In this document: piece by piece, positions 1,224-5,724 of the stretch
How the letters are laid out: each line of letters begins with the position of its first letter
Numbering within the stretch: position 1 is the stretch's first letter
DNA from: a virus
Strand: one strand, 5' to 3'
Virus record (IMG/VR): IMGVR_UViG_3300000115_000230
Span: 1-22,281 of that record
Length of the DNA: 22,281 bases
The notes under the pieces: generated by a model
What the model was told of the DNA's origin: nothing
The model's database searches: none
The model's input: the letters and a program-made list of their open reading frames with translations, nothing else
Program-made: the position numbers and the translations under genes

Positions 1224-1403
1224 ATGTATGATAAAGAAAGAGATATGAATCCACCTGAACCAAGAGAGCAGTATGAACCTGACGTAGACGCTATTGGTGA
1301 TGAGATGTGGTTACGTAAAAAAGAAGAAGAAGAAAAAGAACAAGACGTAGAACCTAATGATGAGTACGATGAACATGACTGTTGTAGAGGTGATTGTAAA
1401 TGA
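1224..1403 (+). CDS. Small acidic, charge-rich protein (59 aa)
   Basis: The best start is ATG 1224, behind GGAGG at 1210-1214; starting further upstream at 1185 would overlap the preceding small gene in another frame and has no comparable box. The 59-residue product is dominated by Glu, Asp and Lys, with a KKEEEEKE stretch in the middle, and ends in a Cys-Cys...Cys motif (HDCCRGDCK). It is probably extended or disordered, with a possible metal-binding tail. It shares an ATGA overlap with the next gene at 1400-1403. Function unknown. Confidence 0.6.
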   Translation: MYDKERDMNPPEPREQYEPDVDAIGDEMWLRKKEEEEKEQDVEPNDEYDEHDCCRGDCK

Positions 1404-1570
1404 GATGTATAGCATGTAATAAAGCTCTTTCTGATTTTGAAAGTACTCGTAAAGATATTACTACAGGCGAATTTGTTGATATGTGCAATGAATGTTTTCG
1501 TTATGTCCAGGATTCTGTTGTTACTAATGAACGAGAAGACCTAAGACATAACGAAGATATAGATGAATAA
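1400..1570 (+). CDS. Small zinc-ribbon-like protein (56 aa)
   Basis: The ORF starts within an ATGA overlap with the previous gene and ends with TAA at 1568-1570. The 56-residue product has two CxxC pairs, RCIAC near residues 3-6 and MCNEC near residues 29-32, a spacing typical of a four-cysteine zinc ribbon. From memory, similar short proteins with this N-terminus recur in replication regions of marine podoviruses; their role is not established, and nucleic-acid or protein binding is a guess. The gene ends exactly where the oppositely oriented PqqA-like gene ends (1571), so the two are tail to tail with no spacer. Confidence 0.7.
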   Translation: MRCIACNKALSDFESTRKDITTGEFVDMCNECFRYVQDSVVTNEREDLRHNEDIDE

Positions 1571-1642
1571 TTATTTATTCATTACGTACATTGTTACTTC
1601 AAAACCGAAACGCATTTCAGTAGCTTGAGGTGTAGTCCACAT
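1571..1642 (-). CDS. pqqA: PqqA-like precursor peptide of PQQ (23 aa)
   Basis: On the minus strand, ATG (1642-1640) opens a 23-codon frame ending in TAA (1573-1571). The peptide begins MWTTP, contains an Arg-Phe-Gly-Phe segment, and has Glu15-Val-Thr-Met-Tyr19 near the end, followed by a short tail ending Asn-Lys. PqqA peptides such as the 23-residue Klebsiella one have the same length, an N-terminal Met-Trp...Pro, and the conserved Glu-x-x-x-Tyr. The radical-SAM enzyme PqqE, with PqqD, links this Glu and Tyr to start pyrroloquinoline quinone synthesis. Both residues fall at the same positions here. An AAAGGA box lies about seven bases before the ATG and an extended -10 promoter lies further upstream. 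No pqqB, C, D or E is visible, so host enzymes would be needed. A chance ORF with this pattern is unlikely. Confidence 0.82.
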   Translation of the reverse strand: MWTTPQATEMRFGFEVTMYVMNK

Positions 1643-1691
1643 AGTGTTATCCTTTCATAAAATATAAAAACTTTATTGTTTCTATACTATT

Positions 1692-1720
1692 ATTATAACA
1701 CTTTGTTTGATAAAAGTAAA
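1692..1720 (-). promoter_or_regulatory. Extended -10 promoter for the PqqA-like gene
   Basis: Read on the minus strand, TTTACT (1720-1715) and a perfect TATAAT (1697-1692) are 17 bases apart, and TGT directly precedes the -10 hexamer, which is an extended -10. Transcription would start near 1685 and give a leader of about 40 bases before the PqqA-like ATG at 1642. The -35 end lies beside the ribosome binding site of the divergent primase gene. Confidence 0.65.
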
Positions 1721-1731
1721 TAAGGAAAATC

Positions 1732-2412
1732 ATGAGTTTATTTAAAGGACATCTACCTTGTCCTAAATGTGGTAGTAAAGATAATCTAGGAGATTATGAT
1801 GACCACCAATTTTGTTTTGGTTGCCAGTATTATGTAAGAAAAAATGATACTGCTAGCTTACGAGCAAGAATGAATAAAGATAAAACTGATTCAAATACTT
1901 ATACTATACCTATTACCAATGACATACCTCAAGAAGCTATGCAATGGTTATTAAAGTATAATATTACAGAAAAAGAAATAAAAAAATACAAAATCTCATG
2001 GAGTCCTTTAAAGATTCTTGTATTGATTATATCAAAAAGTTATTGGCAGGGTAGAAACTTTGGCTTTGGTAATCAAAAGTATAAGTCCAATGGTATTAAA
2101 CCATTGAAGAAGTATGGTTCAGGTAATACATTAGTATTAGTAGAAGATGTTTTATCTGCTATTAAAATAGCAAGAACAGAGGATTACTCTGGTGTTCCTT
2201 TACTGGGCAGCAGTCTAAGTAAAGAACATGAGTTGCGTTTAATTAAAAACTATGATACAATATATGTATGGCTTGATAGAGACAAAGCTAAAAATGCAGT
2301 AAAGATTAAGAATAGATTAAGAGAATTAGGGATAACAAGTAAAGCGATTATAACACCCCTTGACCCTAAAGAGTATAACGAAACGGAGATTAATATATGG
2401 TTGAAGAACTAA
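1732..2412 (+). CDS. DNA primase (zinc-finger plus TOPRIM, T7 gp4 N-terminal type)
   Basis: This 226-residue protein would synthesise RNA primers at the replication fork. The N-terminus carries a zinc-binding module, C10-P-K-C13 and C28-F-G-C31, as in the primase half of T7 gp4. The TOPRIM core shows the catalytic Glu138 in LVLVEDVLSA and the acidic pair D182-R-D184 in VWLDRD. It lacks a helicase domain, which is supplied by the next gene overlapping its last 16 bases; in T7 both are on one polypeptide. The ATG at 1732 is preceded by AAGGAAA. The gene is divergent from the PqqA-like gene, with about 90 bases between starts. Confidence 0.9.
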   Translation: MSLFKGHLPCPKCGSKDNLGDYDDHQFCFGCQYYVRKNDTASLRARMNKDKTDSNTYTIPITNDIPQEAMQWLLKYNITEKEIKKYKISWSPLKILVLIISKSYWQGRNFGFGNQKYKSNGIKPLKKYGSGNTLVLVEDVLSAIKIARTEDYSGVPLLGSSLSKEHELRLIKNYDTIYVWLDRDKAKNAVKIKNRLRELGITSKAIITPLDPKEYNETEINIWLKN

Positions 2413-3635
2413 TACTTAAATTATTTATAGAAGATAATAAAGCCTTTACAAAATTCTATAAGTATGTTAAACTAAATTATATAAAGAATAATTATACTAA
2501 CTTATATAAATTATTTCTTGTTGTTAATAAATACTATACTAAATACAACAAAGATAATATAACTAAAGAAGAACTATTAACAGAATTTAATGTTAATTAT
2601 TATTTAGAAGATTCTGAAAGAGATGAAATAGAATCTTTAATAGATAGAGTTATTAACAAAACAATAGATAATGAAGACTCTTTAATAGAGTTACTTAACG
2701 AACATAAAAGAAGAGCGTTAGCTGGCGACATAGCCAAGCTAGCTCTTGATGTAGAAGAAGGTACTGCTAAAACTTCTGAACTAATAAATAAGTTTTCTGA
2801 TTTTGAACACCAAGATATACAAGAAGATACAGCAGAAGCAGTTAACATGGAGCTAAATGATTTATATAAATCTCAAACAGGTACACCGGGATTAAGATGG
2901 AGATTAAACTGGCTAAACAAATCACTAGGTTCATTACGCAAAGGTGATTTTGGTTTTATATTTGCAAGACCAGAGACAGGTAAGACCACTTTCCTTGCCT
3001 CAGAAATTACCCATATGGTTCAGAACACACCAGGAGATATAATATGGTTTAATAATGAAGAGCAAGGTAAGAAAGTGGCAATCAGATGTTATCAAGCTTT
3101 ACTTAACTTGACAAGTAAAGAACTCTTTGATAACATAGAAGTTAATAGTGAGAAGTATAAAGAATTAACAGGAGGTAGAATTAAGATATATGATTATGAA
3201 GACTCATCTAATACTGGACGTATAGAACAGATACTAAAAGAGTCAAACCCAAGTCTTATTATCTTTGACCAGATGGATAAAATAAAAGGATTCAAATCAG
3301 ATAGACATGACTTACAACTTAAACAACTATATCAATGGGCTAGAGAACTTGCTAAAGGATATGCTCCAGTCATTGCAGTTAGCCAAGCAGGAGGAACTGC
3401 TGAAGGTAAGCTATGGTTAACAATGGATGACGTTGATAGTAGTAAGACAGCGAAACAAGGTGAAGCTGACTGGATACTAGGCATAGGTAAAGAACAAGAT
3501 AATACAAGTCATATGAGATTCTTAAACATAAGTAAGAATAAATTATTAGGTGATAGCGATAGCTTGCCAGACCTAAGACATGGTAATGCTAGCGTAATAA
3601 TTAAACCAGAAACAGCGAGGTATATAGACCAATGA
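2397..3635 (+). CDS. Replicative DNA helicase (DnaB/T7 gp4 C-terminal type)
   Basis: A 412-residue RecA-fold helicase. The N-terminal 150 residues are Lys/Asn-rich and probably helical, suiting a primase-interaction or hexamer-linker region. The ATPase core starts around residue 165 (PGLRWRLNWLNKSLG). Walker A reads ARPETGKTT with G195-K196-T197, and Walker B is SLIIFDQMD with D291. A later IAVSQAGG segment matches the motif H3 region of gp4-type helicases. The first glycine of Walker A is replaced by Ala. The ATG at 2397 lies behind GGAG, and the gene overlaps the primase by 16 bases. Its end overlaps the polymerase start by four bases (ATGA at 3632-3635). Confidence 0.9.
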   Translation: MVEELILKLFIEDNKAFTKFYKYVKLNYIKNNYTNLYKLFLVVNKYYTKYNKDNITKEELLTEFNVNYYLEDSERDEIESLIDRVINKTIDNEDSLIELLNEHKRRALAGDIAKLALDVEEGTAKTSELINKFSDFEHQDIQEDTAEAVNMELNDLYKSQTGTPGLRWRLNWLNKSLGSLRKGDFGFIFARPETGKTTFLASEITHMVQNTPGDIIWFNNEEQGKKVAIRCYQALLNLTSKELFDNIEVNSEKYKELTGGRIKIYDYEDSSNTGRIEQILKESNPSLIIFDQMDKIKGFKSDRHDLQLKQLYQWARELAKGYAPVIAVSQAGGTAEGKLWLTMDDVDSSKTAKQGEADWILGIGKEQDNTSHMRFLNISKNKLLGDSDSLPDLRHGNASVIIKPETARYIDQ

Positions 3636-4783
3636 ACTATCTAACACTAGATGTAGAAACAACTATAAGTAACAAAGGTAATCCATTTGACCAATCAAAC
3701 AAGCTAATGCTTGTAGGATTAAGTAATGGAAAAACATATGATATAGAATACTCCGTTGACCCCTACAAGGAATTGCTAGACGACATCCAAATCGCTGTGG
3801 ATAAGGCAGATGTGCTTGTAGGGTTTAACATTAAATTTGATTTGCATTGGTTACAAAGATATGGTATAATATTTAAAGACAAAAGAATATGGGATTGTCA
3901 ACTAGTAGAATTTATACTGCGTAACCAAGCTAACCCTTACCCATCTCTTAATGGTGTAGCAGAATACTATGAGTTAGGAAGTAAGTTAGATGAAGTTAAA
4001 GAAAACTACTGGAAGAATGGTATTGACACAGACCAAATACCATTACCGATACTAAGAGATTATTTACAACAAGATGTAAAACTAACAGAACAAGTTATGT
4101 ATAGGCAACAAGCAGTATTAAAAGAAAGACCAGAGTTACAAAGACTTATATCATTACATAACCAAGACCTAATGGTACTACAAGAAATGGAATACAATGG
4201 TCTTAACTTTGAGTATGAAAAGTCTAATACACTAGGAGATGAACTTGAAGAACAAATTGGAAAGCTGGACAGACGACTTCATGAGTATATTAATTATGAT
4301 GATTTTAATCCCAACAGCGTTGACCATCTTAGTGCTTTACTTTATGGTGGTAATATTAAAGCAAAGCGTCAAGTACCTATTGGACATTATAAAACAGGCG
4401 ATAGAAAAGGTGAAGTTAAATATAAATGGGAAGAATTTTTAATACCTTTTAATAGAATGTTTAATCCAATCCCAGGAACAGAGTTAGCTAAAGAAGGATT
4501 GTATTCAACAGATGACAAGACATTGAGAAGTCTCAAAGGAAATAAGAACGCAATGGAACTACTAAACATCTTATTAACTAGAGCAACATTAGAAAAGAGA
4601 AGGTCTACATATTACATTGGATTAACCAAACTCATTGATACAATGAAATGGAAACACAATACAATACATGGACAACTTAATCAATGTGTAGCAAAAACAG
4701 GTAGGTTAAGTAGTAGTAAACCTAACTTACAGAACTTTGATGGAGAGATTAAAACACTCTTTACAACTAGATACGGAGAATAA
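3632..4783 (+). CDS. DNA polymerase A, N-terminal fragment (3'-5' exonuclease and thumb)
   Basis: The 383-residue product is the front part of a family A DNA polymerase. The proofreading exonuclease is complete: Exo I D7-V-E9, Exo II N66...D70 in GFNIKFD, and Exo III Y144...D148 in YLQQD. Residues 150-370 match the thumb and first palm segment, ending with TGRLSSSKPNLQNFD, the conserved region ahead of motif A. The frame then stops with TAA right after Arg-Tyr-Gly-Glu. The remaining polymerase motifs A, B and C lie in a separate gene at 5005-5724, after a 72-codon insert. The fragment alone should be an exonuclease without polymerase activity; the two products probably assemble into one enzyme. 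A frame-shifted or degraded polymerase is less likely, because no residues appear lost at the break. Confidence 0.88.
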   Translation: MNYLTLDVETTISNKGNPFDQSNKLMLVGLSNGKTYDIEYSVDPYKELLDDIQIAVDKADVLVGFNIKFDLHWLQRYGIIFKDKRIWDCQLVEFILRNQANPYPSLNGVAEYYELGSKLDEVKENYWKNGIDTDQIPLPILRDYLQQDVKLTEQVMYRQQAVLKERPELQRLISLHNQDLMVLQEMEYNGLNFEYEKSNTLGDELEEQIGKLDRRLHEYINYDDFNPNSVDHLSALLYGGNIKAKRQVPIGHYKTGDRKGEVKYKWEEFLIPFNRMFNPIPGTELAKEGLYSTDDKTLRSLKGNKNAMELLNILLTRATLEKRRSTYYIGLTKLIDTMKWKHNTIHGQLNQCVAKTGRLSSSKPNLQNFDGEIKTLFTTRYGE

Positions 4784-4784
4784 T

Positions 4785-5003
4785 ATGAGCAGAGATGACT
4801 ATTTACCAACAGATGAAGATGAGCAACAAGCTCAAGAAGAAGCACATAAACATCATACTATACAAGAGTTTGCTGCTATAGTAATGGCAGATGGACCAGC
4901 AGCAACGCTGGGTCAAATGCCTGATGATGCTAAAAATGAAATAAGACAATTAATATTGCATGATTACATGCAAAGATTATCATCAGCTAATTCAGGATTA
5001 TAA
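4785..5003 (+). CDS. Small gene inserted between the two halves of DNA polymerase (72 aa)
   Basis: ATG 4785 lies behind GGAG (4775-4778) and one base after the stop of the polymerase N-terminal gene; TAA is at 5001-5003. The 72-residue product has an acidic N-terminus (PTDEDEQQAQEEA), a His pair, then a probable helical region (IQEFAAIVMADGP...LGQMPDDAKNEIRQLI). It has no cysteines and no recognisable endonuclease or intein motif. Both of its borders carry the same seven-base stop-plus-start string TAATATG (4781-4787 and 5001-5007). Its position suggests a role tied to the polymerase, such as an assembly or processivity factor, but that is only inference. Confidence 0.7.
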   Translation: MSRDDYLPTDEDEQQAQEEAHKHHTIQEFAAIVMADGPAATLGQMPDDAKNEIRQLILHDYMQRLSSANSGL

Positions 5004-5004
5004 T

Positions 5005-5724
5005 ATGTTATTAAACGCAGACGCTAAACAATTAGAATGGGTAGGTGCTGCTTATCTATCTCAAGATAGCACTGCTATTAAAGAGATATTAGATGAAGTA
5101 GACCAACATACAGACAATCAAACAAGGTTTGGACTACCCTCTAGGTTAATAGCTAAGACGTTTGTCTTTAGATTAATCTATGGTGGTAGTGCATACTCAT
5201 ATAGTATGGACCACAACTTTAAAGATATAGGTAACGAATCCTTCTGGCAAGATGTGATAGATGAGTTCTATAAAAAATATGATGGTTTAAAGAAATGGCA
5301 CGAAGAAATACTTTTCCGTGCTAAAAGAGACCAGTATCTTATAATGCCAACAGGCAGAAGATACGACTACCCACCTGAGTTAAGTAGCTTAGGTAAAGTT
5401 AAGTATCCACGAACAAGAATACTTAACTATCCTGTTCAAGGATTGGGAGCAGATTTGATGTCAATTGCTAGAGTATCATTGCGCAATAGACTCAAAGATA
5501 AAACAGGTATACAATTAATTAATACTGTACACGATTCTATTATGCTTGACTTTGATACTAAAGTATGGGATAATAATAGTATAGTATCGTTAGTTGATAC
5601 TTGTTTTAATGACGTACCTGATAACTTTGAAAAGTTATTTGGTAAGAAGTTTAATCTACCCATGCGAGTCGAGTGTCAAATTGGTGAAACATGGGGTAAT
5701 ATGGAGACAGTAAATGCAAATTAA
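5005..5724 (+). CDS. DNA polymerase A, C-terminal fragment (palm and fingers, motifs A-B-C)
   Basis: This 239-residue protein holds the polymerase active site. Motif A is NADAKQLEW with D6 and E11, matching T7 gp5 D475 and E480. Motif B (O helix) has R47, K51, F55 and Y59 with the exact spacing of T7 R518, K522, Y526 and Y530. Motif C is TVHDSIMLD with H176-D177. Thus both catalytic aspartates are present. The residue equal to T7 Tyr526 or E. coli Phe762 is Phe, which in studied enzymes favours discrimination against dideoxynucleotides. Motif C has Ser where HDE is usual. ATG 5005 is chosen because it directly follows the small gene's stop and starts just before motif A. It overlaps the SSB gene by 11 bases. 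Confidence 0.9.
   Translation: MLLNADAKQLEWVGAAYLSQDSTAIKEILDEVDQHTDNQTRFGLPSRLIAKTFVFRLIYGGSAYSYSMDHNFKDIGNESFWQDVIDEFYKKYDGLKKWHEEILFRAKRDQYLIMPTGRRYDYPPELSSLGKVKYPRTRILNYPVQGLGADLMSIARVSLRNRLKDKTGIQLINTVHDSIMLDFDTKVWDNNSIVSLVDTCFNDVPDNFEKLFGKKFNLPMRVECQIGETWGNMETVNAN

Follow-up and report, generated by a model that had tools for sequence, protein, structure and literature searches.

The window analyzed here, a single viral record of 22,281 bases, contains a pqqA gene on the minus strand at positions 1571..1642, which comprises 23 codons and a TAA stop (MWTTPQATEMRFGFEVTMYVMNK). The encoded peptide matched the Pfam family PF08042 (PqqA) over the entire profile (1–19/19) with 41.6 bits (E = 1.1e-10; gathering cut-off 21.1 bits) and the NCBIfam equivalog TIGR02107 over positions 1–21/21 with 38.1 bits (cut-off 20 bits). 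Both scores exceed the curated cut-offs, and by these criteria the peptide qualifies as a full-length PqqA. It was the only PqqA match in a scan of the whole record, and the family matched none of 14 control genomes. The first-pass annotation had given the coordinates, the minus strand, and the length of 23 codons correctly, and the PqqA identity, for which it had proposed a profile search, is borne out by these scores. The N-terminal Met-Trp...Pro and the Glu15-Val-Thr-Met-Tyr19 motif described there were read as W2, P5, E15, V16, T17, M18, and Y19; the Glu-x-x-x-Tyr residues linked by PqqE correspond to E15 and Y19. A chance open reading frame was ruled out by the profile score, the synteny, and the pN/pS ratio. 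No PHROGs family was matched by the peptide, and this phage library is therefore ignorant of PqqA. A tblastn search with Methylophilaceae PqqB–E as queries detected no pqqB–E in the window, in agreement with the earlier statement that it holds no further pqq gene. In the classical pqqABCDEF operons (Klebsiella, Acinetobacter), PqqA likewise has about 23 residues, W2, P5, the cross-linked Glu and Tyr, and a G ahead of the E-V-T motif as in the phage peptide. Unlike in these operons, the phage pqqA is not followed by pqqB–E, and its sequence is of the Methylophilaceae type.

The left neighbor of pqqA is a small CxxC ORF (1400..1570, plus strand, 56 amino acids, no Pfam match); almost all relatives have a homolog of it on the left side of the site. 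The right neighbor is a Toprim primase-like gene (1732..2412, plus strand; PF13155, 22.1 bits, at the cut-off), which served as the synteny anchor. Relatives were gathered with the DnaB-like helicase (2397..3635, plus strand; PF03796) as query, so that the 80 relatives were picked regardless of PqqA; the site was readable in 63 of them. An intact pqqA was present antisense between the CxxC ORF and the primase in 32 of the 63. In the other 31, pqqA was missing at the site, and the flanking genes overlapped or were at most 62 bases apart. Decayed copies were not found at any of the 63 readable sites. In relative L170, with about 98% identity on either side of the site, the two flanking genes are joined directly; this empty site places the extent of the cassette, which is missing as a unit (about 160 bp), at about 1568..1731. 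Three of the 31 site-negative relatives (L188, L236, and L242) carry pqqA elsewhere on their own contig, and since the relatives' contigs are partial, other site-negative ones may also have it elsewhere. This pattern is that of a small cassette undergoing gain and loss. As about half of the close relatives are without pqqA at the site, the gene is not essential.

The selection acting on the peptide was estimated from 28 distinct sequences of the helicase-chosen set only, because the 80 best viral loci had been picked by peptide pattern. The copies of the helicase-chosen set were located with the core motif, and no pqqA-sized gap without a copy occurred among the sites read. The values obtained were pS 0.50 and pN 0.05, which correspond to a pN/pS of 0.10 (codon bootstrap 0.02–0.23). 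Variable columns were distributed over codon positions 1/2/3 as 7/4/18 of 23. In the viral copies read, residues 4 and 6 were the chief variable positions, whereas W2, P5, R11, G13, F14, E15, V16, T17, M18, and Y19 were invariant. E15 and Y19 did not vary in 96 distinct viral copies, a larger set that was partly picked by peptide pattern. The first-pass annotation had named the loss of Glu15, Tyr19, or the reading frame in relatives as well as a lack of purifying selection as evidence against its reading; all three were retained in the relatives, and purifying selection on the peptide was found. The substitution pattern indicates that pqqA is kept in the phage by selection.

Upstream of the gene, a Shine–Dalgarno sequence AAAGGA (1650..1655, minus strand) was read directly 7 nt ahead of the start codon, and an AGGA-like site recurs upstream of pqqA in the relatives. 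It is preceded by a leader hairpin (AGTATAGAAAC-AATAAA-GTTTTTATATT; 1661..1688, minus strand), which would form the predicted 5' end of the mRNA. The putative promoter consists of a −10 element TATAAT with a TG before it (1692..1697, minus strand), which is kept in the relatives, and a −35-like element TTTACT (1715..1720, minus strand; 17-nt spacer), identified by consensus match only. With its extended −10 and 10 of 12 consensus matches, it was the top promoter match in the region. In most syntenic relatives, the hairpin starts 3–7 nt past the −10 hexamer. From this predicted promoter, pqqA may be transcribed during infection.

The hairpin is indicated by fold z-scores and by compensatory changes in its stem. 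The mean z-score of 25 leaders was −2.8 vs −0.16 for the leaders of other genes on the same contigs (p about 5e-13, uncorrected for kinship among relatives). An unbroken stem of at least seven pairs was found in 15 of 19 relatives and was reached by 10% of the shuffles. Depending on the relative (n = 19), the same stem positions are occupied by A-T, T-A, G-C, or C-G, which points to compensatory change. The pairs were counted arm by arm because the MAFFT alignment of the leaders mis-registers the stem arms, whose loops differ in size. The leaders of other viral and host pqqA genes showed a weaker folding tendency (mean z about −1.1). By analogy with hairpins known from other 5' ends, it may protect the very short mRNA from decay. 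Rfam yielded no convincing match to the leader and no match at the gathering level anywhere in the window, and no terminator was found downstream of pqqA. As far as the predicted elements go, the cassette is self-contained and combines a promoter, a 5' hairpin, a ribosome site, and 23 codons.

The replication genes of the window include the Toprim primase, the DnaB-like helicase, a split family A DNA polymerase, and a class II ribonucleotide reductase. The closest isolates are the Methylophilales phages MEP401 and MEP402 (ribonucleotide reductase 80%, helicase 67–68% identity), and the MEP401-type replication module including the split polymerase is present. From its gene content, the window can be assigned to a MEP401-type phage (Zobellviridae, OM43 hosts). 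The host is most likely an OM43-type methylotroph, as judged from these nearest isolates. The peptide is identical to a PqqA of OM43 strain HTCC2181 (L089). A methylotroph host with a PQQ-dependent methanol dehydrogenase, which had been suggested before, accords with the propagation of MEP401/402 on OM43, with the identical HTCC2181 peptide, and with a pqqA near a xoxF-type gene on another viral contig.

All 120 Methylophilaceae genomes contained pqqA, with a median of four and a maximum of 12 copies (two or more in 113), and pqqE was detected above the cut-off in 112 of the 120, nearly always once. The usual though non-defining adjacency to pqqBCDE is absent for the window pqqA. This is not decisive, because 63 of 80 matched genome loci were likewise without other pqq genes in the flanking DNA covered, and 17 lay beside them. 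HTCC2181 has three pqqA copies, none of which is near pqqE; two of them are about 180 bp apart. The host copies (L089–L168) are scattered (1–12 in each genome), and the leaders of several of them contain hairpins that are unrelated in sequence. Methylophilaceae have been described as carrying three to 12 copies of pqqA, with the other pqq genes mostly present as a single set (PMC4109929). The orphan pqqA genes among them encode the same type of peptide and have their own leader away from pqqBCDE; they are chromosomal, with 1–12 per host, whereas the window pqqA is phage-borne and situated in a replication module. PqqA supply was reported to be rate-determining in Methylovorus MP688 (as cited in PMC11317620). 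Given multiple host copies and a rate-determining PqqA supply, extra precursor is a logical addition, be it by host or phage. OM43 cultures receive PQQ with the growth medium, and an external source of PQQ is therefore possible.

The first-pass annotation had described pqqA for this phage alone; the gene is present in many others. In an annotated phage collection, pqqA was found in P19250A, Venkman, MEP301, MEP401, MEP402, four Melnitz variants, and ctXG6705; MEP431–434, HIM624-A, and Venkman EXVC038S are not among these matches, which does not imply absence. None of the matching records carries a PqqA annotation: they have either no feature at pqqA or merely an antisense prediction labeled "hypothetical" (ctXG6705, Melnitz). 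The earlier reservation that relatives might already have been annotated with the gene thus does not apply, and the view that gene callers easily overlook 23 codons holds for the cultured methylophages. The papers on Melnitz, MEP301, MEP401/402, and Venkman are silent on a pqqA gene in their main texts. In IMG/VR, at least 588 viral stretches with a confirmed pqqA were found; 116 and 44 were obtained with other sequence types as queries, with some overlap. The A2 and A3 query peptides were approximate and used as search baits only. The neighborhoods of pqqA fall into several groups without two genes in common. In the T4-like contig L298, pqqA adjoins the major head protein, and in the T4-like L353 and L273, it is located near a gp32-like ssDNA-binding protein. 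None of 32 phage records, five isolates among them, contained pqqE above the cut-off, and no pqqB–E was found in the flanking DNA covered at methylophage-type loci. PqqC had no match in the phage records; this search was weak, as the 14 control genomes were likewise unmatched, and the result for pqqE is the firmer negative.

As an auxiliary gene, pqqA lies in true phage genomes, where it is surrounded by phage replication genes and carried by isolates, and it is both host-related and selected, judging from the peptide shared with HTCC2181 and the pN/pS. For the methylophages, host contamination was ruled out by complete isolate genomes with pqqA. Records of Acinetobacter MD-2021a that are labeled viral and contain a pqq operon are likely host contamination. 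Enterobacterial-type PqqA was located about 0.3–0.5 kb from the end of many contigs of about 40 kb (L286–L296, L307, and L309), which probably represent prophages inserted beside the host pqq locus; these peptides are likely host contamination, too.

On some viral contigs, pqqA is accompanied by PQQ-related genes. The 72-kb contig L009 encodes both the large and the small subunit of a ribonucleotide reductase, a peptide deformylase, and an exonuclease (PHROGs matches). Within 8 kb of its pqqA, it contains a PQQ-dependent methanol dehydrogenase (TIGR03075, 607.9 bits, cut-off 480) and the alpha subunit of a formate dehydrogenase (fdhA; 884.8 bits, cut-off 666); a quinoprotein dehydrogenase-associated SoxYZ-like carrier (197.5 bits, cut-off 140) directly follows pqqA. 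The best PDB match of the methanol dehydrogenase was the lanthanide-dependent XoxF 6oc5, with DEWDYDGINE in place of DEWDFDGINE. The genes for the XoxF-type methanol dehydrogenase, formate dehydrogenase alpha, a thioredoxin, PqqA, and the SoxYZ-like carrier form one stretch (L009:103-8903), a putative viral methanol-oxidation module. In L294:2734-5988, L249:3422-5990, and L273:3452-5999, pqqA directly follows ORFs with CxxCH heme motifs, some of which match cytochrome c families of Pfam weakly; these ORFs are perhaps a periplasmic electron-transfer set accompanying a PQQ enzyme. In L353:4248-5690, an alpha-type pqqA lies between phage genes for SufA-like and IscU-like Fe–S assembly proteins. 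Since PqqE is an Fe–S radical SAM enzyme, this grouping may not be accidental.

PqqA is a substrate rather than an enzyme, and one peptide is consumed per PQQ. The identity and intactness of the phage gene, its synteny, the purifying selection, and the cassette structure are established, as are the absence of pqqE from the tested phage records and the presence of the pathway in host genomes. We consider it highly probable that the window carries a genuine methylotroph-type pqqA in a selected cassette and that the phage precursor feeds host PQQ synthesis. The gene would be expressed during infection; PqqD/PqqE of the host would introduce the Glu15–Tyr19 cross-link into the phage peptide, and host proteases, PqqB, and PqqC would complete PQQ. 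Synthesis of the cofactor would thereby be raised, or sustained when host expression fails, and a PQQ-dependent (XoxF-type) methanol dehydrogenase could continue to supply energy to phage replication, to the benefit of the phage. The overlooked pqqA in many unrelated methylotroph viruses suggests that these provide raw material for the cofactor with which their hosts burn methanol. With somewhat less assurance, we regard it as probable that phages as a group follow such a substrate-only strategy, in which many unrelated phages of PQQ-using bacteria encode the precursor alone, in a mobile mini-cassette with its own promoter and a hairpin that stabilizes the mRNA, and leave the catalysis to host enzymes, with xoxF and fdhA added in some cases. 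This class would have been overlooked because gene callers skip genes of 23 codons.

Since the maturation enzymes are all the host's, a substrate without enzymes of its own could in principle also compete for them. As a decoy, the phage peptide would occupy PqqD/PqqE and lower host PQQ or redirect metabolism. A peptide acting as an inhibitor could dispense with Glu15 or Tyr19, yet both are invariant in all distinct viral copies read, and this constant retention of the reactive residues lowers the likelihood of a decoy role. The phage peptide also equals host copies, and contigs on which pqqA accompanies a PQQ dehydrogenase suggest an increase of PQQ rather than a decrease, so that this explanation appears quite improbable. 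A role independent of PQQ, for example in lanthanide uptake or in phage–host signalling or conflict, is unlikely as well. It draws on the orphan pqqA of M. extorquens, which responds to the lanthanide supply and for which a role in uptake was suggested (PMC11317620), and on a RiPP family annotated as PqqA that is tied to phage interactions by co-expression only (PMC11118758). However, conservation falls precisely on the residues of PqqE substrates, and the viral copies read showed no change of the peptide that is specific to phages.

A passive origin from hitch-hiking host DNA or contaminated viral contigs would account for the host-like peptide and is the case to be expected of records such as those of Acinetobacter MD-2021a, which are clearly host, or of the enterobacterial-type copies near contig ends. 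It is very unlikely for the window, because complete isolate genomes contain pqqA, synonymous sites are strongly diverged at the low pN/pS, decayed copies were not found, and the leader hairpin is conserved. The antisense position between two co-directional genes and the structured leader would also fit regulatory DNA or an antisense RNA for the neighbors, with the peptide being irrelevant. This is the least probable of the explanations, given that the constraint acts at the amino-acid level, pqqA does not overlap its neighbors, and the same peptide gene occurs at unrelated places in other phages. The supply of PQQ precursor by the phage is therefore retained as the preferred reading.

Phage PqqA as such is already known. 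In the T4-like Methylophilaceae virus VP_266 from Lake Baikal, it was interpreted as support for methanol dehydrogenase (PMC7678222, 2020), and viral pqqA, pqqD, and pqqE were listed for reservoir sediments (PMC13188868, 2026), where pqqA is a counted table entry without anatomy and was read as phosphate solubilization. VP_266 is a single T4-like population from fresh water that itself encodes a methanol dehydrogenase; L009 resembles it, as both have methanol dehydrogenase, PqqA, and peptide deformylase. In contrast, the window belongs to a small podovirus-like phage in which pqqA occurs by itself, within a cassette that has an empty counterpart site, and the gene was traced here across many phage groups. 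No earlier report of pqqA in cultured methylophages or of its breadth across phage groups was found in the open-access literature searched, nor of an empty site, a selection estimate, or the leader hairpin; the breadth, the missed isolates, and the cassette anatomy thus appear to be new. If the preferred reading is true, viruses of marine and freshwater methanol consumers manipulate the cofactor supply of methanol oxidation, and they do so at the sole step at which an ingredient is consumed and not recycled. Among auxiliary metabolic genes, pqqA is unusual in supplying a substrate instead of an enzyme, and annotation misses this frequent metabolic gene because of its small size. Its role is directly testable, since Venkman, MEP301, MEP401/402, Melnitz, and P19250A are already cultured with their hosts.

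Two further regions of the window deserve mention. The family A DNA polymerase is encoded by two ORFs (3632-5724), which are split just ahead of motif A, and a small ORF (4737-5003) is located between the halves. The split point is the same in all relatives read, with the halves nearly abutting or 180–450 bp apart. The split in MEP401-type phages has been published, and an intron was suggested (PMC10580990); Rfam gave no intron in the polymerase region of the window. The region 199-1065 showed a weak match below the cut-off to a class II glutamine amidotransferase (GATase_4), and an amidotransferase of this type is listed among the auxiliary genes of MEP401-type phages.
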